A DNA stretch of 64,000 nucleotides from Fimbriimonadaceae bacterium (GCA_020847855.1 JADLBH010000027.1:1-64000), one strand, 5' to 3'. Shown: positions 31,683 through 46,199, counted from the stretch's first letter. Notes: generated by a model from the sequence alone, not told the origin. Made by a program: numbers and translations.

Positions 31683-31913
31683 CGGAACGAACTTCCTGAG
31701 TATCGCCCATAGATCGGCGACGATGCCCGCTGCATGATCCGGGCCGGGCGACCCGCGGGGGGCTCGGACCGGCCCTTCGGGCAACGACGGCTGCACGGGA
31801 GCCTTCCGCACCCGCCGAGCTCCCTTCGGCCGAACCGGCGAGGGGAAGGGTTTTCAACGCAGCACCACGATTTCGGCACATCGCAGAGCTCTGTGGTTTA
31901 GTATGGAATCAGG

Positions 31914-32180
31914 ATGCGATTCTCGGTTCCGTACTTCACAGTCGCGGCTTCCGCCGCCTTAGCCGGGAGGGCTGGCGCGCAGGGCACGCAGATCGCGCAA
32001 CGGTTCGGAGGTGGCGGGCCCATGCCCAACTGCTTCGGCGGAACGAACCTCGAGGTCCGGTTCGAAGCGTGGGACAACCTGGGAAGGGTCTACGAAGACT
32101 TTGACGACGCCAAGCTCCATGGCGTCTATGACGGGAACAAGGACGCTGAACCGACGACGAACTGGGTGAGGCCGCTGTGA
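31914..32180 (+). CDS. A0: degenerate member of the caspase-like A family
   Basis: 88 residues: signal peptide (FTVAASAALAGRAGAQ), a strand PMPNCFGGTNLEVRFEAW matching the head of A1 (PMPFYFSGTDCRASGEAV), and a tail KLHGVYDGNKDAEPTTNWVR matching the end of A2 (KLRGVYAPENVPLPSPLTW). The whole central domain with the putative His-Cys pair is missing, which suggests an internal deletion that kept frame. Its stop overlaps the start of the next gene (GTGA), as in the other cassettes. A single TTTAGTAT-like -10 lies near 31898. Confidence 0.6.
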   Translation: MRFSVPYFTVAASAALAGRAGAQGTQIAQRFGGGGPMPNCFGGTNLEVRFEAWDNLGRVYEDFDDAKLHGVYDGNKDAEPTTNWVRPL

Positions 32181-33088
32181 CCAGGGGCAAGACGGTGCTG
32201 TTCTGCGGCGCGGGCTTGGTCACTCTGGGCGTTGCGGGGGCGGTGTTCCTTTCCGGGCTGCGTCCCACTGCCTTGACCATGAGCCCCGAGGACGGCTGGG
32301 CACTGGCGCAGAGGATCTTCGCCGCGATCGGGCAGGACCTGACCACCGAGGATCCGCTCACACTCGATCGGGACGGCCTGTGGGGCGTGCGAGCGACCGT
32401 CAGCGGCTCGGGCACTTACCTGGTGGGGGGCAACCCGAAGAACGCCAACGTCTCCGTGAGTGGGGGCCGGGAGTACGATTTGAGGAAGTCGGGCGAGCGG
32501 CGGGCCGAGTACCGCTTCACGAGCGCCGAGGAGGCCGGGCGCTATTGCGACGAGATCGCCGCCGCCGCCTTCGGGGGGACCGAGTTCCGGCGGACGCGGC
32601 TGGAGTTCTTGCCCCGCGACGAGCGGGACGGGAGGGGCTGGCTGGTGCGCATGGCGAGCGCGACGGCGCTCTACCACCGGGTCCATCGTGGCTACACGAG
32701 CGTCTCCGGCGCAGACGGCTTGAGCCTCCAGGTGGACGCGGCCACCGGTGCGATCGAGTACGCCTACTGGCAGCCCGACCCCTTCGCTACGAGCGGCAGC
32801 GCGACGCCGACAGTGTCCGAGCAGGAGGCGCGGCGGCTCGCCGAGGAGTTTGTCCAGGACTACCTTCACCCCGAGGAGATCCGCGGTTTTCCGGCCCGGC
32901 TCGGGTGGGCGGCGCAGTACGACCCCGTGACCCGCGAGACCCTGCCCAGCTATGTCCTGGCCTGGCACTTCACCCACCCGGACTATGCCGACCGCATGAT
33001 GGACTGGCCAGCCTTCCAGGACTCGCACGACCAGTGGCACGTGGGCAGTGTGCGGGTCTCGGCGACGGGCTCTGGGAAGGTCTGGTAG
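32177..33088 (+). CDS. B0: exported PepSY-like protein
   Basis: 303 residues from GTG 32177, which overlaps the A0 stop. An N-terminal membrane helix or signal (about 7-26) precedes two PepSY-like units. The second begins VSEQEARRLAEEFVQDYL and ends SVRVSATGSGKVW in place of the usual VDA.TGEV. It is of the same type as B1-B4. PepSY domains occur in peptidase propeptides and inhibitors; an inhibitory or chaperone role toward the A proteins is inferred. Confidence 0.65.
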   Translation: MTRGKTVLFCGAGLVTLGVAGAVFLSGLRPTALTMSPEDGWALAQRIFAAIGQDLTTEDPLTLDRDGLWGVRATVSGSGTYLVGGNPKNANVSVSGGREYDLRKSGERRAEYRFTSAEEAGRYCDEIAAAAFGGTEFRRTRLEFLPRDERDGRGWLVRMASATALYHRVHRGYTSVSGADGLSLQVDAATGAIEYAYWQPDPFATSGSATPTVSEQEARRLAEEFVQDYLHPEEIRGFPARLGWAAQYDPVTRETLPSYVLAWHFTHPDYADRMMDWPAFQDSHDQWHVGSVRVSATGSGKVW

Positions 33089-38702: not shown

Positions 38703-39818
38703 TTACCGAAACCAGTCGTTGGGATATGGGAGAAAGTCATTGCCGGTATACACCTTTGTCAATCTTGTGAACCTATCACCGTAGATAGGTAGCTCCGAAA
38801 ACGAGTTGAGTACATTATCGCCGTAGGGATTTCCATCGAAGTTCGTATAGACGCTAGGTTGATTCAGTAAGTGCTGCTGGGAGGCTAGAGCGAAGAGCTG
38901 TAGACAGGCCTTGTGGACCGTCTGACCCCCAGTAAGCGAAGTGATCAGCCAATCAGCGAGCCGGGAGCCGTCACCAATGAAGAGTTGGCCATATGCGGCG
39001 ACGACGGCCTTGTCCCGAATCGTGAAGGGGTCGTAATTTGTGCCATGTGGTTCAATCGCCGTCAGGAAGGCACTCGAACTCCCCATCTTGCATCCTAGCA
39101 GCAGAGCGAGCTCAACCGGTTCGTTCCCCGTATCGTTGAACGGGGGCCAACCAAACCCGTTCGCTTCCGCCCGCCAGAAGTCGTAGGAGACATCTCCAGT
39201 GCCAATGCTGCTCCACACGAGGTCGCCCTGGCCGGGGCTGCATTGGTGCGCGTTGGGCCCTGCGTGTGTCCATACAACCCAGAATGAAGCGCGCGCGATG
39301 CGTGCCGCGGCGATCGTTGTCGGCCAACTATCGGATAAGTAGGACCGTTGCAAGTTGAGCCCCGAGACAATTCCGTCGGCAGTGCTCGCCAGATCTCCGC
39401 CATAGGTCTCTACAAACTCTGGCAAGTCATGCAACTTGGCCCCGTTCTTGACCACCGAGCTTTCGGCCGCTTCGTAGAAGTTCCCGTGGCTGTCCTTCGC
39501 CTTGAACCTCACCTCGACGCTGGTCCCTGGAGGAAAGTGAGTGGAGTCGAAAGTCAGGCTAAGGCCCTTCGAGGTCGAGGACGGCTCTCCCGCGAGCTTG
39601 AGCCAATGCATGAGGTTTTGTCCGTTGAGGTTGAGCCAAGCTTCGACCAACTCGTTCGCCTCTCCCGCGATCAGCCCTGGGCAGACCGCCTCCCCGCTCG
39701 CACGGCAGTCCGTGCCAGAGAAGTAGAAGGGCATCGGGTCGCTCTGGCCGGTCGTCCCGTTCTGGCTCGGAACCCAGGCGCCTGGGCCCGAGACCTGGGC
39801 GCTAGCCCCTACCGCCAC
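38703..39818 (-). CDS. A1: exported caspase-like (clan CD) family protein
   Basis: 371 residues counted from GTG 39818, but the open frame continues upstream and encodes a good signal peptide (GASALLWLVAVGASAQ) joined to the octamer repeat, so the real start is probably ATG 39870 in another phase. Domain order: N-terminal beta region (PMPFYFSGTDCRASG), Ig-like strand with LTFDSTHF, a caspase-like half with the putative catalytic His in VVWTHAGP and Cys in LLLGCKMG, and the family tail VYTGNDFLPYPNDW. Proteolytic activity is inferred from fold-like pattern only. Confidence 0.65.
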   Translation of the reverse strand: MAVGASAQVSGPGAWVPSQNGTTGQSDPMPFYFSGTDCRASGEAVCPGLIAGEANELVEAWLNLNGQNLMHWLKLAGEPSSTSKGLSLTFDSTHFPPGTSVEVRFKAKDSHGNFYEAAESSVVKNGAKLHDLPEFVETYGGDLASTADGIVSGLNLQRSYLSDSWPTTIAAARIARASFWVVWTHAGPNAHQCSPGQGDLVWSSIGTGDVSYDFWRAEANGFGWPPFNDTGNEPVELALLLGCKMGSSSAFLTAIEPHGTNYDPFTIRDKAVVAAYGQLFIGDGSRLADWLITSLTGGQTVHKACLQLFALASQQHLLNQPSVYTNFDGNPYGDNVLNSFSELPIYGDRFTRLTKVYTGNDFLPYPNDWFR

Positions 39819-39829
39819 GAGCCAAAGAA

Positions 39830-39861
39830 GCGCCGATGCGCCGATGCGCCGATGCGCCGAT
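39830..39861 (-). repeat. Octanucleotide tandem repeat, 4 copies, start of A1
   Basis: Four perfect copies of ATCGGCGC (minus strand) lie 6 bases after ATG 39870. Read through, they encode IGASAHRR-type residues at the start of the signal peptide. With four copies the ATG frame runs into TAG after about 23 codons. Five copies would join it to A1. Confidence 0.9.
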
Positions 39862-39880
39862 GGACGGCATGGTAATTTGA

Positions 39881-39909
39881 ACGTTACCCGCGCTTGGGCA
39901 CTGTGTCAA
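39881..39909 (-). promoter_or_regulatory. Promoter of A1
   Basis: TTGACA (39909-39904), 17 bases, TAACGT (39886-39881), then 10 bases to ATG 39870. The spacer and flanks are nearly identical before A2 and A4. The expected start is only a few bases before the ATG, so the mRNA should be nearly leaderless. Confidence 0.7.
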
Positions 39910-40110
39910 GAGCTCGCTCGGTTCTTTCATACAACGCGCCACTCGTCCTCCCTACTAGTGTAACGTACGCGGGGCGCACCAGCATTCCCTCTCCGCCCCG
40001 GACACCGTTCGGCGCTTAAGGGCATGGGAGTCAACTCTTTGTGCTGAAGTGGGGGGGCCTGCGGCTGGCAGAGGAATCTGGCGCTGCTCGCGTCGGAAGC
40101 TGGGCGGCTG

Positions 40111-41124
40111 TCAGCCTTTCGTCAAGAAGTAGACGACGACGACGAGAGCTGAACCCACTGCGACGAACCCGATGAGACCGGTCCAGGACCCTGGCTTCAT
40201 TGAGCCCGCGGCTTCTTGCACGAGGTTTCGTGAGTCTCCTCGTTCTCCCCGGCTGTCCATCACCTGAAGCACTTCCCCCGAGCAGGCGTCCACTCGAACC
40301 TCCCACTCACGGTCGTACACCGTGTAGACCAGGGGCACGGCGCCGCTGTCCAGCAAGGACAGCGCACGCGCAGAAATCCAACTCTCCCCGGCACTCCAGT
40401 CTAACATGTTCATATACTGCGGGCCTTGCCAGTGAGGCTCGCGCAACGATCCGGCAGCTGCCAAGGCGGCTGCGATCGCCTCATCGGCAGAGACTGGCTT
40501 GCCCGCGGGTGGCTCAAAACTGTACCTCGTGAGCTGGCTGATCTCCGATACGAGACCGGTCTTCGCGTCGAGCCTGACCGAGGTGTGGTTGACAGACCTC
40601 GAAGGGTAGCCGTGTGCGATCGGCTCAAGCTTGACGAACACATTGCGGCTCGTCACCAATCCCTCGGCGTCGGGCTCAGGCACCTCGGCCTCAGTGACTT
40701 GGTCGTGGGACGGCGCACCGACGAGCCTCGCCACCTCTCGCACGCGCTCGAACGCCTCCGTGGTGGAGCGGTACCAGGGACGGAACGGCGGGATCTCGAT
40801 GAAGTTGAGCAGGTTTCCGGGGTATTTCCCGTTCGCGCCACCGATGCTAAGCCCGAGCAAGGCTCCGTCTCGGTCTGAGACAGAGACGCTAACCGTAAGG
40901 CCATCACGATAGAGGTCGCAGCTCCAGTACCCAGGCCTTCGGTTCCTCGGGTGAGGATTATACGTCGGAGCGACGGGCGCGCTGAGTCCGCTCTCGTCGG
41001 GGAACACCGCGATTGCGAACTCGATCGCTATTCGCTCGACGTCAGGGGAGGAGTGGATCTGAGCCTGTGCTCCCACAACCAAGAGGGCTGCCGTGAGCAC
41101 GGCTGTGGGCCTCGTGACAGTCAT
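40111..41124 (-). CDS. B2: exported PepSY-like protein with C-terminal anchor
   Basis: 337 residues from ATG 41124, which overlaps the A2 stop (ATGA). The signal peptide is AVLTAALLVVGAQAQ. The second PepSY-like unit is the clearest in the family: VSADEAIAAALAAAG, then a closing VRVDACSGEVLQV. A C-terminal membrane helix (TGLIGFVAVGSALVVVVYF) anchors it. Same pairing logic as B1 with A1. Confidence 0.75.
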   Translation of the reverse strand: MTVTRPTAVLTAALLVVGAQAQIHSSPDVERIAIEFAIAVFPDESGLSAPVAPTYNPHPRNRRPGYWSCDLYRDGLTVSVSVSDRDGALLGLSIGGANGKYPGNLLNFIEIPPFRPWYRSTTEAFERVREVARLVGAPSHDQVTEAEVPEPDAEGLVTSRNVFVKLEPIAHGYPSRSVNHTSVRLDAKTGLVSEISQLTRYSFEPPAGKPVSADEAIAAALAAAGSLREPHWQGPQYMNMLDWSAGESWISARALSLLDSGAVPLVYTVYDREWEVRVDACSGEVLQVMDSRGERGDSRNLVQEAAGSMKPGSWTGLIGFVAVGSALVVVVYFLTKG

Positions 41125-42212
41125 CCTTGCACCACCCTGAACCACGTCAGCGGACTGGGCAAGGGCACATTCTCGGGCGCGTACACGCCGCGTAGCTTCG
41201 TACGGAAGTCGCCCCAGATCGGCATGTGGCCTTCGAGTAGCGGAGACCAAGGGGGCCTCGCCGAAGGTGGTGCCGACTCAAAGTCACCGTTAACAACGAT
41301 GAATCTACGCGCCTCAAACAAAGTCTTTCCCCAGTACAGTTGCTGATGGTACATGGCGGACAGGTCGGCAAACTGTGAAAGCCGTACCAGTTGGTTGAAG
41401 CCCGTTATCGCCTGGTCCTCCATCCAGCCTCCATAGTTGTTTGCATACGGCAGGTTGAAGACGTTGAAACTCATGTCCGTCGCCGCGGAGCAGGCATGGA
41501 TGAACGCAAATGCGATGGGCGGCTGCCCGGTCGAGTTGAACGGTGGCAGACCCGTCCCCATTTGGATCGAGCGATATGCCTGTACGTCGGCAGGAACGAT
41601 CGTGTCGGCAAACTGGCCGGGGGCGTCGTCGTCGAAGCTGGGGGAAGCATTTCCATGCCCGCCGAAGTACTCGACGGATGCACCTTGCATCTCGGAAAGA
41701 AACTGGAGCTTGGGCCAGCCGTCCTGGGAGTGCGTGTGCGTCCGATACCCCATGATTGCCATCCATGACATCACGATGGGGGCGGAGGCAGGGTTGAGTT
41801 TCTCGTCCATCACGTCGTACTGCTTTGCCATGTTCTTGATCGGTACGGTGACCTCGCTCGCGTGCTCGGTCGGGTCGCCGAATTCCGTCACTTCGAGCCG
41901 AACCGTACAGTGGGTCTGGGAGGCACCCCAGTGTGTCGAGTCGAACATCACGTGGGCCTGCCACTGCGAATGGAGTTCGCCAGGCGTATAGGGGAACGTC
42001 TTGGAGTACACTAGCTCCCCGTTCAGTTTGACCTTGAAAGTCTCAAGACCCTCGGACGGACTGCTCAACCAGGCACGGGCACTCGCACGCGCATTCGTAG
42101 AGGTGAAGTAGAGCGGAGGCGGAGTGTCCGCTGGAATCACGAGGTGAACGCTAGCAGGGCACACGGCGGCAAGTACGCCGACAAGAACCGAAGCACCGAT
42201 GCGCCGATGCAC
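41121..42212 (-). CDS. A2: exported caspase-like (clan CD) family protein
   Basis: 363 residues from GTG 42212, which lies inside an imperfect repeat unit and gives a usable signal peptide (RIGASVLVGVLAAVCPAS). It carries the N-terminal VIPADTPPPLYFTSTNARASARAW strand in two parts, VMFDSTHW, then the putative catalytic His in VEYFGGHGNAS and Cys in FAFIHACSAATD, followed by a helix and VNGDF strand. The tail is KLRGVYAPENV...LTWF. This is the most complete member and the best candidate for an active enzyme. Confidence 0.7.
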   Translation of the reverse strand: MHRRIGASVLVGVLAAVCPASVHLVIPADTPPPLYFTSTNARASARAWLSSPSEGLETFKVKLNGELVYSKTFPYTPGELHSQWQAHVMFDSTHWGASQTHCTVRLEVTEFGDPTEHASEVTVPIKNMAKQYDVMDEKLNPASAPIVMSWMAIMGYRTHTHSQDGWPKLQFLSEMQGASVEYFGGHGNASPSFDDDAPGQFADTIVPADVQAYRSIQMGTGLPPFNSTGQPPIAFAFIHACSAATDMSFNVFNLPYANNYGGWMEDQAITGFNQLVRLSQFADLSAMYHQQLYWGKTLFEARRFIVVNGDFESAPPSARPPWSPLLEGHMPIWGDFRTKLRGVYAPENVPLPSPLTWFRVVQG

Positions 42213-42264
42213 CGATGCACCGATGTGCCGATGTGCCGATGCGCCGATGCACCGATGCGCCGAT
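42193..42264 (-). repeat. Degenerate octanucleotide tandem repeat, 9 copies, start of A2
   Basis: Nine units of ATCGGYGC or ATCGGCAC (minus strand) follow ATG 42273. Some units read ATCGGTGC, which creates GTG codons, and one of them (42212) is in frame with A2. From the ATG the frame is wrong with 9 copies; 7 or 10 would be right. Sequence decay suggests this copy no longer slips freely. Confidence 0.85.
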
Positions 42265-42283
42265 GGACGGCATGGTAGTTTGA

Positions 42284-42312
42284 ACGTTACCCGCGCTTGG
42301 GCACTGTGTCAA
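42284..42312 (-). promoter_or_regulatory. Promoter of A2
   Basis: TTGACA (42312-42307), 17 bases, TAACGT (42289-42284), 10 bases, ATG 42273. The spacer is identical to that of A1. Confidence 0.7.
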
Positions 42313-42383
42313 GAGCCCGCTCGGTTATTTCTTACATTGCGGCACTCCCCCACCTTGCGACAGGACGAGAAGGGCCCAAGGGC

Positions 42384-42437
42384 GGGCCGGCAGAGCAAGC
42401 TCAGACCAGGGGCGGCCATCCTCGGTGCAACCTGGCC
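42384..42437 (-). repeat. Intergenic repeat, copy 1
   Basis: A stretch of about 54 bases containing GCAAGCTCAGACCAG and CGGTGCAACCT (plus strand) recurs at 46200-46253 with a few substitutions. In both places it lies 70-110 bases upstream of the promoter of an A gene. It was probably copied along with the cassette; function unknown. Confidence 0.7.
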
Positions 42438-42510
42438 CAAGCCGACGTGCCGCAGCCTGGGTCTGCCGTTCCGGGACAGCGGGTGCCACGTTCGGTCCAC
42501 ATTGCGACCG

Positions 42511-43389
42511 CTAGGATCCGAAGACGTCCGCGTGCAAGACATCGCCGGTCGAGGCTCGCACGATCACCCACGCCTTGCGAGGCACCCCAGGTTCGAGACA
42601 GGGGGCAAGGTGCACCTTGTAGGCTGGGAATGCCGGTATCGTCTCACTGGGCCGCCCATGCTCACGCTGGTATGCCGTGAACCACTCCCGGTCAGGCACG
42701 GACCATCCTCGCTCGATACTGACCGGTTCGCGCCATTCTCGCGGGTAGGTCTCCTCGTCAAATACGGCCAGTAGAGTGGCAACGGCCTGTCGCGCCCGTT
42801 GCTCTCCAACGTCAACTTCTTCCTGCACGAAGACGACGTGATCCGTGATCCCGAAGTACAGCACAGCACCGTCGTAAAGATCAATGCCGAAGCCCATCCT
42901 GTTGCCGCCTTGGAAGCAGGCAGGGTCGGCTGTACGGCGAAACGTAACGCTCGCTGTACCGTACGATTCCATTCGATCGCCTGTACCGCGCTTTTCGGGC
43001 GTGACCCTCACCTCGTCTATCTTCCAGCCAGACCCCTGCCCGATCCGTTCCGCGAGATCTGTCGCCCGCTCACGAATCTGCTGGTCCGTGGTGAGCTGGA
43101 GCCTTACTTCGCGAACGTTGTAGCGTGCATGAGTCTCGCGACGTACGGACTGGTAGCTCCGTACTAGCAGGTCGCGCAAACGCACGGTGCCGGAGTGCCC
43201 ATCGGCAAAGTGGACTGTACGTTGGTCTGATCCTTCGCCGCTCAGTCGAGCTATGTCCGAAGCCGGGGAGTTCGGGCACGAGATCGCGGACTCAAATCGG
43301 TGGATTGCTTGCAGCAATTGTCCGGTGTTGTCCTGCTCAGTTCCTGCGCAAAGGAAACCTGATGTGAGAAGGGTTATTGCAACGATCAT
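42511..43389 (-). CDS. B3: exported PepSY-like protein
   Basis: 292 residues from ATG 43389, which overlaps the stop of the broken A3 frame (ATGA); an upstream ATG at 43404 is possible. The signal peptide is MIVAITLLTSGFLCAG. It has two PepSY-like units, with the final strand WVIVRASTGDVLHADV. There is no C-terminal anchor. It is closest to B4 (shared VRLQL/VRLEP strand, FPAYKV, VIVRAS.G) and likely a recent duplicate. Confidence 0.7.
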   Translation of the reverse strand: MIVAITLLTSGFLCAGTEQDNTGQLLQAIHRFESAISCPNSPASDIARLSGEGSDQRTVHFADGHSGTVRLRDLLVRSYQSVRRETHARYNVREVRLQLTTDQQIRERATDLAERIGQGSGWKIDEVRVTPEKRGTGDRMESYGTASVTFRRTADPACFQGGNRMGFGIDLYDGAVLYFGITDHVVFVQEEVDVGEQRARQAVATLLAVFDEETYPREWREPVSIERGWSVPDREWFTAYQREHGRPSETIPAFPAYKVHLAPCLEPGVPRKAWVIVRASTGDVLHADVFGS

Positions 43390-44165
43390 GAATTGTCCTT
43401 CCATTCAGTATGCACGTTGTGAGTGCCGTCAAACAGCCACTTGATGCGCGCTAACTCGTCACCGGTGAATTCAACCGCCAAATCCAACTCCCCGTATTGG
43501 TCTACAAGACGATACGGCGCCGGGCCCTCAATCCACTCCTCCTCAGCCGCTTTGCGGACGGTCATACCTGCAAGACTCCTGGTCATGATGCCATCGAAGA
43601 ACGCGAACGCTTGGGCATCTGTCGGCTTGATCTTGAACGAGACGACGACCCGGTTCGTCTGGCACGGCGACTCGCTCAGGTAAGCAAGTGCGAAGACCTC
43701 GTTCTGCTTGCTGACCTCGCATCCGGCAATGTAGTCGAAGTACAGTGGAGGCGGCGGTGGTAGGGTAGCGGCCACGCCTGAAGCTACGATGTGCTGGACT
43801 GCGTTCTGCGACGCCTGGAAACCGGCGGGCTTGGGGGCGTCAGGCGGTTAGCCGAAGTACTGGAGGGAACAGGGCTCGTTGTTCGCAGCTGCATTGGCAC
43901 CACTGTCGCGGCCGATCTGGTACCCCGTCTCCGCCGCAGCGCCGGTGACGCCGAGCTGCAGCGGCCCGTTGAAGGTACAGCACTGTGCCTTGAGCCACAC
44001 GCCTGGCACAGTCTCCGGCGCACCGCCAGGAGGTTGGCGCAGGATGCCGACCTTGGCCCAGAAGACGCCAGGGCCCTCTGCACGGCCGGTCGCAGTCTGG
44101 TTGAACTGGCCTGCAACGATAATAGGCGCGTCGGCAGGGATCCCCCCCGGCTGTGACAGCGGAGA
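43386..44165 (-). pseudogene. A3: broken caspase-like A gene
   Basis: From 44165 one frame runs open for 105 codons (IPADAPIIVAGQFNQTATG, like the A2 head IPADTPPPLYF) to CSLQYFG. It meets TAA at 43850-43848, then continues in frame as PPDAPKPAGFQ, LYFDYIAGCEVSKQ (putative Cys), FDGIMTRSLAGMTVRKAA and the tail LFDGTHNVHTEW. The stop falls where A2 has YFGGHG, so the catalytic His is lost. No start codon or promoter lies before the open stretch, and the repeat and promoter block are absent. A 129-residue product could still start at GTG 43775. Confidence 0.7.
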
Positions 44166-45053
44166 TCAGGACAGGGCGATTTCCAGGATCTCGCCGTTCG
44201 AGGCACGCACGATCACGTAGCTCGGCTCGTCCCAGCCGGGCCACCACGGGCTGTTCGAGAACGACACTTTGTACGCAGGCACGACCGCTTGAAAGTCGGG
44301 CTCCCGGCCGTGCCTGGCCACATAGTCGGCGATCCACTGCTTGCCGGCGCTGCTCCAGCCGAATACGACGGCGGAGACCCGTCGCCACTCCGCCGGGAAC
44401 GCGGAAGGATCCTCCGCGTCAATCTGGGCGAAGACAGCCGCTGCAGCGGACCTCGCCCCGGCTTCGCCGACCGTATCCCCTTCCTCGAGGAACCGGAGGT
44501 GGTCCACAAGGCCGTAATAGAGCACGGCGCCGTCCCACCGGTCGTATGCCACCGTCCATCGGTTGCGGCCCCTGAAGGTAGGGCGGTCGCCGATCTTCCG
44601 GCCCTGGACGTGGGCGGTGCCCCAGGACTTCATGCGATTAGGCTTGTCAGGGTCTGGGGTCTCCGGCTCGAGACGAACCTCCTCTATCTCGAACTCGCGG
44701 TCGAGGCCCAGGTCGGCGAGAAGCCGCTGGGCCTTTGCCCTCGCTTCGTCCTCCGTGTTCATAGAGAGCGCGACGTCCCGCCGAAAGCCGAGCGAGCGTT
44801 CGGCTCCCCGCCCGTCGTTGCGAAAACTGGTCACGCGACCATCCCGAGTGCGCACATCGACGTGAAGCGAGTTGACGATTCGGAACTCCACGTCGCCTAA
44901 AGCTGGGGCGGGCCCGAGTTTCAGCTCGCTTGCGTCGAATTGAGCCCCGATTTGCTGAAGAAACTCGACGGCAGTTGCACGCGGGTCTGCCTGTTGCCCA
45001 GGTTGTGCGATCAGCGTAGAATTAAGCAGTAGGATCAGTGTGCTAAAGTTCAC
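44166..45053 (-). CDS. B4: exported PepSY-like protein
   Basis: 295 residues from GTG 45053, which overlaps the A4 stop (GTGA). The signal peptide is TLILLLNSTLIAQ. The N-terminal unit ends LHVDVRTRDGRVTSF and the C-terminal unit ends YVIVRASNGEILEIALS. No membrane anchor. The A3 remnant continues in the same frame right after its TGA. Confidence 0.7.
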   Translation of the reverse strand: MNFSTLILLLNSTLIAQPGQQADPRATAVEFLQQIGAQFDASELKLGPAPALGDVEFRIVNSLHVDVRTRDGRVTSFRNDGRGAERSLGFRRDVALSMNTEDEARAKAQRLLADLGLDREFEIEEVRLEPETPDPDKPNRMKSWGTAHVQGRKIGDRPTFRGRNRWTVAYDRWDGAVLYYGLVDHLRFLEEGDTVGEAGARSAAAAVFAQIDAEDPSAFPAEWRRVSAVVFGWSSAGKQWIADYVARHGREPDFQAVVPAYKVSFSNSPWWPGWDEPSYVIVRASNGEILEIALS

Positions 45054-46012
45054 GTATTGCGTTTCCAGTCCGTGTGGACGTAGTTCGTTCCGTCGTAAAG
45101 CCACCTGGGCCGAGCGTGCTCGTCTCCAGCTATGTACATGGCGTCATCAAACTCTAAGTCGTAGTCATCCTTCATCGTCGAGGCGTCCCACGCTTCTTTG
45201 GCGGCTCTGCCCACCGTTTTCCCGTCGAAGACCCGCTCAACAATGTCGAAGTACAGGCTCAGCATTTCCGCGTTCTTCAGCGTCACCTTGAACGCAACCA
45301 CGCACCGATTCGCCGTACCGGTAGCCTCGCTGAGGTAGGCGTCCGGGACCGCTGCATTGTTGTTCTCGGCGACCCGGCACGAGGCGAGGAACGCGAAGTA
45401 CAAGGGGAACGGCCCGCCCGGCACTGCGCCTGAGACCACTGTGTCGTTGACCGCGGTCGGCGCCGCGGGCGCCCAGACGACGCCTGGCGTGCCGTGCGCC
45501 AAGATCAGATGGCTGGTGGCGGGCGGCATGTCCGCCGTCACCGTGTTCGCTGACCACGAATTGTTGAAGATGTTCTTCGTGACGGTGTGGTTCCAGAGTT
45601 CGAACCCAAGCGCCGCGCCCGAACCGCCGGCGACCAACGCCAGCTGCTTGTGCTGGATCAACACCGCCGCGTTGTATACCGACCTGGTGGTAAGCAAAAT
45701 CGGCTGGATTGACGTGGTCTGGCCGTTGTGCCAGACAGTGGCGTAGAGCCAGAACTCGACGTCCTCGCCGTGTTCCCAGTGCGTCGAGTCGAACTTGCAG
45801 GCCAGTACGGCCTCGGGCACAACCGCATAAGGAGGCGGCTCTTGCGGCAAAGGGAAAACCTCTCGGTCAAGCTCGTCGAGCGGTTGCGAAGGGGAACTGG
45901 ACTCGACCCAGACCTCCACAAGGCTCGTCTCCGTCGCGGGACTGATTTCGACTTCGACCCTCACCTCATTGTAGGTGCCGCTAAGGATGGACGGCAGCTG
46001 TACGCTCTTCAC
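45050..46012 (-). CDS. A4: exported caspase-like (clan CD) family protein
   Basis: 320 residues counted from GTG 46012. The open frame extends upstream and encodes ALLALFFSLSQA, a signal peptide joined to the octamer repeat, so ATG 46083 is the likely start in another phase. It carries CKFDSTHW, the putative His in LILAHGTPG and Cys in FAFLASCRVAEN. A helix with the gingipain/CHAT-like pattern SLYFDIVERVFDGKTVGRAA follows, then the family tail LYDGTNYVHTDW. Cleavage of protein substrates is inferred, not shown. Confidence 0.65.
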   Translation of the reverse strand: MKSVQLPSILSGTYNEVRVEVEISPATETSLVEVWVESSSPSQPLDELDREVFPLPQEPPPYAVVPEAVLACKFDSTHWEHGEDVEFWLYATVWHNGQTTSIQPILLTTRSVYNAAVLIQHKQLALVAGGSGAALGFELWNHTVTKNIFNNSWSANTVTADMPPATSHLILAHGTPGVVWAPAAPTAVNDTVVSGAVPGGPFPLYFAFLASCRVAENNNAAVPDAYLSEATGTANRCVVAFKVTLKNAEMLSLYFDIVERVFDGKTVGRAAKEAWDASTMKDDYDLEFDDAMYIAGDEHARPRWLYDGTNYVHTDWKRNT

Positions 46013-46050
46013 GACGACGGCCTGGCTCAGGCTAAAGAAAAGCGCGAGAA

Positions 46051-46074
46051 GCGCCGATGCGCCGATGCGCCGAT
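46051..46074 (-). repeat. Octanucleotide tandem repeat, 3 copies, start of A4
   Basis: Three perfect copies of ATCGGCGC (minus strand) follow ATG 46083 by 6 bases. Three copies put the ATG out of frame with A4; two or five would restore it. Confidence 0.9.
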
Positions 46075-46093
46075 GGACGGCATGGTAACTGCT

Positions 46094-46122
46094 ACCTTAC
46101 CCTCGCTTGGGCATTTCGTCAA
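46094..46122 (-). promoter_or_regulatory. Promoter of A4
   Basis: TTGACG (46122-46117), 17 bases, TAAGGT (46099-46094), then 10 bases to ATG 46083. The geometry is the same as for A1 and A2. Confidence 0.65.
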
Positions 46123-46199
46123 GACCGTGCTCGGCTCTTTCGCTTGGGCGGTGATCACCCTTACGGCGGCAGGGCGAGAGGCCTCCAGGGTCGGGCAGG

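Follow-up and report, generated by a model that had tools for sequence, protein, structure and literature searches.

Three related genes in the stretch of DNA analysed (64,000 nucleotides from a Fimbriimonadaceae bacterium, phylum Armatimonadota; GCA_020847855.1, JADLBH010000027.1:1-64000; referred to below as the window) carry octanucleotide repeats close behind an ATG that is out of frame with the secreted protein encoded beyond. These genes, named A1, A2 and A4, and their paralogs are very probably contingency loci, switched ON and OFF by repeat slippage, for secreted proteins with predicted Ig-like and caspase-like domains, many of them with a PepSY-like partner. A preliminary description of the window had proposed phase variation at these genes. 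Sequence comparison supports that proposal: unrelated repeats occupy the same place in other family members, the presence of a repeat predicts an out-of-frame ATG, and purifying selection acts on the coding regions.

Octamer arrays separate the ATG from the reading frame

A1, A2 and A4 lie on the minus strand and share the same layout: a promoter, the ATG, the hexanucleotide CCGTCC, the octamers and a signal peptide. Each array begins directly after ATGCCGTCC, the ATG being at 39870 in A1, 42273 in A2 and 46083 in A4. In A1, the ATG (39868..39870) is followed by four perfect ATCGGCGC-type octamers (39830..39861) and then by the region coding, in another frame, for a signal peptide (ALLWLVAVGASA) and the mature part of the secreted protein (38703..39829). 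The A4 ATG (46081..46083) precedes three perfect octamers (46051..46074) and the region coding for its signal peptide (ALLALFFSLSQA) and mature protein (45050..46050). In A2, nine octamers of the same type, partly decayed by C/T and G/A changes, lie at 42193..42264 between the ATG (42271..42273) and the signal peptide and mature protein (41121..42192), the latter modelled with Ig-like and caspase-like domains.

Frame analysis placed the ATG out of frame in the three genes, with offsets of 1, 1 and 2 for A1, A2 and A4, respectively. The ATG frame reaches a stop after 66 nt in A1, 120 nt in A2 and 54 nt in A4, while the secreted protein, of roughly 330–390 residues, is read in another frame. No in-frame ATG was found upstream of the signal peptide in any of them, and in A1 and A4 no in-frame ATG, GTG or TTG was present before the signal segment. 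The repeat thus lies between a start codon and an intact frame that the gain or loss of units can restore, at two or five copies in A1 and A4, and at seven or ten in A2. The arrays, the out-of-frame ATGs and the intact signal peptide just beyond each array had all been described earlier and were confirmed; the earlier copy numbers were also correct, two copies being a further solution for A1. An in-frame GTG in A2, attributed to repeat decay, was likewise found, at 42212; no Shine-Dalgarno sequence was seen before it.

The octamer is open in all three reading frames. Since 8 and 3 have no common factor, every frame encodes the same cyclic peptide, IGASAHRR, which is basic and open and suits the n-region of a signal peptide. 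Considering the repeat peptides more generally, all eight units are stop-free and contain Arg, a result that is suggestive only (P = 0.025 in simulations).

Promoters and proposed switching mechanism

Near-consensus promoters (TTGACA/G-N17-TAACGT/TAAGGT) end 10 nt before the ATG of A1, A2 and A4. Their -35 and -10 regions, all on the minus strand, are TTGACA (39904..39909) and TAACGT (39881..39886) for A1, TTGACA (42307..42312) and TAACGT (42284..42289) for A2, and TTGACG (46117..46122) and TAAGGT (46094..46099) for A4. The gap between promoter and ATG is 5–10 nt in most of the family genes for which a promoter was found. Because the promoters of A1, A2 and A4 end so close to the ATG, their mRNAs, and hence their translation, are probably leaderless or nearly so. 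The promoter-to-ATG cassettes span window positions 39862-39930 (A1), 42265-42333 (A2) and 46075-46143 (A4). Those of A1 and A2 are identical at 65 of 69 bases (-60 to +9), and the sequences before and after are dissimilar, which suggests cassette exchange or gene conversion confined to the 5′ end.

According to the mechanism proposed, transcription would start close to the ATG, as the promoter spacing indicates, and translation would begin at that ATG and run through the repeat. Octamer units would be gained or lost by slipped-strand mispairing, each unit shifting the frame by 2 nt. At the permissive copy numbers given above, the ATG would be joined to a basic n-region, (IGASAHRR)n, ahead of the hydrophobic signal segment and the mature part of the product; at any other, translation would halt within about 20–40 codons and no secreted product would be made. 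The assembled genome would then correspond to the OFF state of A1, A2 and A4. Slippage is expected to be slower at A4 and A2, because A4 has only three copies and the A2 array is interrupted. A defect in mismatch repair was considered as a cause and was not supported, since MutS was present in eight of the eight genomes tested; MutS matters little for repeat units longer than about 4 nt.

Octamers and unrelated repeats at the start of one gene family

In the 2.53 Mb genome, the octamer was found in tandem at only five sites: A1, A2, A4 and two on contig C37. Two perfect tandem octamers were present only at A1, A4 and the two C37 paralogs, A2 being found when mismatches were allowed. Each of the five sites marks the beginning of a gene from a single protein family, and the two C37 paralogs (C37_1 and C37_2) are also out of frame. 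A chance origin of the octamer was ruled out by this genome-wide pattern search, for which a reversed-pattern control gave 0 matches.

A profile search identified about a dozen copies of the family in the genome. The paralogs on C38, C18 and C6 carry CTGCGGC x3.3, GCGGT x4.2 and CGGCTCT x2.6, respectively, at their starts, and that on C10 has a G13 tract where the signal peptide ends; each of these four is out of frame. The copy at C37:232611 has no repeat and is in frame. A divergent second family member adjoining the C6 paralog (hhalign E 1.6e-7) contains GCGCA x3.2 and is in frame. Overall, the repeat units found after the ATG in the family are 8, 7, 5, 2 or 1 nt long, none of them a multiple of three.

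Further tracts were observed. On C4 (13800-14790; L052/L054), a family member is split into two frames at a C8 tract that lies within the conserved PPFN motif, possibly a switch inside the gene body or a pseudogene. A fragment at window positions 43784-44206 (minus strand) resembles, by eye, a different secreted protein whose gene is intact on C4 (L093:14004-15425). That gene has TGGCG x5.8 after an out-of-frame ATG, which suggests the same kind of switching in a second protein family. In addition, the octamer ATGCGCTA is repeated 7.8 times at L092:18558-18619 (plus strand), in the untranslated leader of a gene for another secreted protein, with TTGACA on one side and the ATG on the other; the frame of this gene ends at a GGGG-stop, and a poly-G tract may interrupt it a second time.

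Distribution and repeats in related bacteria

Homologs were detected in 15 of the 84 other genomes of the family Fimbriimonadaceae; ACE_ARM1 and UBA6659 are family members in GTDB records. They are thin across the phylum (36 of 291 genomes, the host's own genome counted). A repeat was present at the gene start in 13 of the first 23 loci examined in relatives, all retrieved before any repeat in relatives had been inspected (homopolymers of at least 7 nt were counted). The repeats include a 5-mer x6.8 in the G081 homolog and a 7-mer x6.3 in that of G068, both out of frame. Outside the Fimbriimonadaceae, a G9 tract (G183) and (CT)18 (G150) were found close behind the ATG, again out of frame. The G014 homolog has a long poly-C tract within which the assembly breaks with NN; as a sign of copy-number variation, this break is suggestive only.

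Tracts of G7 to G13 were seen across paralogs and homologs, and in some relatives poly-G lies in or near the promoter. Three UBA6659 paralogs (G100) have the arrangement TTGACA-N9-G8 or G9-TAGCGT or TAGGGT, with spacers of 17 or 18 nt and an in-frame ATG 7–9 nt past the promoter; the ARM1_2 homolog also has poly-G in the promoter spacer. Poly-G tracts in promoter spacers act as switches in meningococcal porA and opc by altering the -35/-10 spacing. The UBA6659 promoters have the layout of such transcriptional switches and are candidates for the same kind of control. Since family members in relatives contain other repeats or promoter poly-G, it is switchability, rather than any given repeat, that selection appears to maintain. 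In ACE_ARM1, a C11/G11 tract was also noted upstream of an unrelated gene (L099:15921); other switched genes may exist.

Among homologs with a readable frame, the ATG was out of frame in 13 of the 15 whose coding start contains a repeat and in none of the 15 without a repeat (Fisher test, 1.8e-6). The 13 of 15 did not significantly exceed the two thirds expected to be OFF (P = 0.079). In the sampled stretches of relatives, nine repeats over threshold fell within family gene starts (2.8 kb in total) versus four in 255 kb elsewhere. This is a density 204-fold that of the background (1.5e-15), which was drawn from about 440 kb of stretches. The fold value is generous, as the selection of stretches was made in part with repeats already in view.

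Conservation of the coding regions and predicted products

For pairs with measurable dS, the dN/dS of the mature coding regions ranged from 0.09 to 0.39: 0.09 for the G075 pair, 0.165 for C37_2 versus C4, 0.205 for A4 (8-mer) versus C18 (5-mer), both with the ATG out of frame, and 0.38 for A1 versus C38. These estimates are rough, and several other pairs were synonymously saturated and gave no ratio. Purifying selection on the mature coding regions (dN/dS about 0.1–0.4) indicates that the family genes are not dead, and selection of this kind on out-of-frame genes is what would be expected if they were sometimes ON.

That the coding regions have been kept functional is also indicated by one His and one Cys that are invariant in 27 homologs (H178 and C233 in A2 numbering, encoded on the minus strand at 41655..41657 and 41490..41492, respectively), the His being part of an HG motif in nearly all. 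The two residues are a putative catalytic dyad. In a low-confidence model of A2 (pLDDT 60), an Ig-like sandwich precedes an alpha/beta domain; among solved structures, the latter comes closest to SAVED-CHAT (Z 9.7), separase (9.5) and caspase-3 (7.8). In this model, H178 follows strand 170-177 and C233 follows strand 227-232, the two strands being adjacent in the core, as in a catalytic dyad. For a second model, of an ACE_ARM1 homolog (L109), only Ig-like proteins were among the matches listed; its C-terminal part is unreliable, and this result is not read as absence of the caspase-like fold. A search of Pfam with the A proteins gave no match at threshold, with single sub-threshold hits to CHAT and to an Ig domain.

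A gene with weak similarity to PepSY, named B, is found 3′ of many A genes in the host genome and in relatives. In the window, B genes on the minus strand lie downstream of A2 (40114..41124, predicted to be secreted), of A4 (44169..45059) and of A3 (42514..43404). A3 itself (43389..43847, minus strand) retains only the 3′ part of an A gene and has neither repeat nor start. The B product may be an inhibitor or a chaperone of A; it is reasonable, though unproven, to see the pair as a secreted caspase-like enzyme and an inhibitor-like partner. A further A-B pair is located at window positions 31902-33085 (plus strand); its A gene, cut to about 90 residues, keeps the signal peptide and both ends of A, with the middle deleted, and is followed by the B gene.

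Alternative explanations

One alternative is that the proteins are made even with the assembled number of repeats, through initiation at in-frame codons other than ATG or through ribosomal frameshifting, so that the repeat would do no more than encode the n-region. The GTG at 42212 in A2 is in frame and would give MHRRIGASVLVGVLAAV, a GTG inside the signal peptide is another type of candidate, and some of the homologs in ACE_ARM1 and G026 seem to begin at GTG or TTG, no usable ATG being in frame where the start is expected. However, a scan of 39 genes for alternative in-frame starts revealed none that was convincing for A1, A4 or G081_C12, which lack any in-frame ATG, GTG or TTG before the signal peptide, and the candidate TTG in C37_1 and C37_2 is the -35 hexamer itself. 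All the repeat-free homologs have an in-frame ATG, and frameshifting would need to operate on units of 1, 2, 5, 7 and 8 nt. Expression at the assembled copy number is therefore improbable, although it is the likeliest of the alternatives to switching by slippage.

Decaying pseudogenes, or assembly errors, in which the ATG has drifted out of frame are rather less probable still. Clearly broken copies do exist, namely the A3 remnant, the C4 member split at its C8 tract, and the members with stops in G032, G010 and G095. Nevertheless, the mature frames are long and intact, promoter spacing is conserved and the His and Cys are invariant; A4 and C18 show a dN/dS of 0.2 despite the position of their ATGs, no repeat-free member has an out-of-frame start (0 of 15), and assembly error does not explain why a single spot carries repeats with five different unit sizes. 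Least probable of all, and only by a little, is that the octamers are neutral passengers, with no role in switching, of a promoter and 5′ cassette spread by gene conversion. The near identity of the A1 and A2 cassettes and an octamer common to five paralogs would fit such a spread, but the copies on C27 and C37 have the same octamer with different promoter sequences. Moreover, a spreading cassette is insufficient as an explanation because unrelated repeats occupy the same place in C38, C18, C6, C10 and in homologs from other genera.

Significance and comparison with known systems

Contingency loci are a textbook trait of host-bound pathogens with small genomes, and are usually explained by immune escape. 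The earlier remark placing slippage loci mainly in host-associated bacteria is a fair one, and it makes the A family an unusual case. We lean, by a modest margin, towards a broader view of the Armatimonadota, a phylum not known for phase variation. In this view, conservation lies in the protein family and not in the repeat: the dispersed genes for secreted caspase-like proteins would serve as a random switchboard that works combinatorially, with short-leader mRNAs, repeats of 1, 2, 5, 7 and 8 nt that have re-arisen at the same spot in the coding start or the promoter spacer, and most copies OFF at any time. If true, contingency-locus biology would reach beyond the classical host-bound lineages to bacteria that are apparently free-living. 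Family-wide, re-invented switching in this phylum would point to another driver, such as phage, predators or the social cost of a secreted enzyme. Selection for random switching would also be a strong hint that the A proteins act on the surface of the cell or beyond it; the set of genes named here makes these ideas testable. In a literature search, none of the 20 titles listed, of 569 matching papers, combined phase variation with Armatimonadota. The slippage mechanism is already known; what looks new is the phylum, together with the recurrent re-invention of the repeat.

With regard to the product, the predicted strand-HG and strand-C layout of A2 resembles that of the clan CD proteins CHAT, separase, caspase and gingipain in a low-confidence model. 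The A proteins differ from these in lacking a Pfam match at threshold, and their peptidase activity is putative. The nearest known design for the switch is that of the opa genes of Neisseria, dispersed paralogous genes for exported proteins, each with its own CTCTT repeat in the part coding for the leader peptide and switched in frame by slipped-strand mispairing (PMC3960869). The A genes are likewise dispersed, with the repeat in the leader-peptide part. Opa proteins, however, are adhesins of host-bound bacteria that form eight-stranded outer-membrane barrels, and a single unit is used in all copies, whereas the A proteins are unrelated to Opa, belong to the Armatimonadota, are predicted to consist of Ig and alpha/beta domains, and have units that differ. 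In Haemophilus influenzae, tetranucleotide loci are known, hmw1A and hmw2A have 7-, 8- and 9-mer promoter repeats, and units may differ between strains (PMC2651432). As is proposed for the A family, a repeat in the coding start or in the promoter sets expression there, and the length of the unit changes while the switch stays; the H. influenzae loci differ in phylum and products, and the A family combines coding-start repeats with poly-G in promoter spacers.
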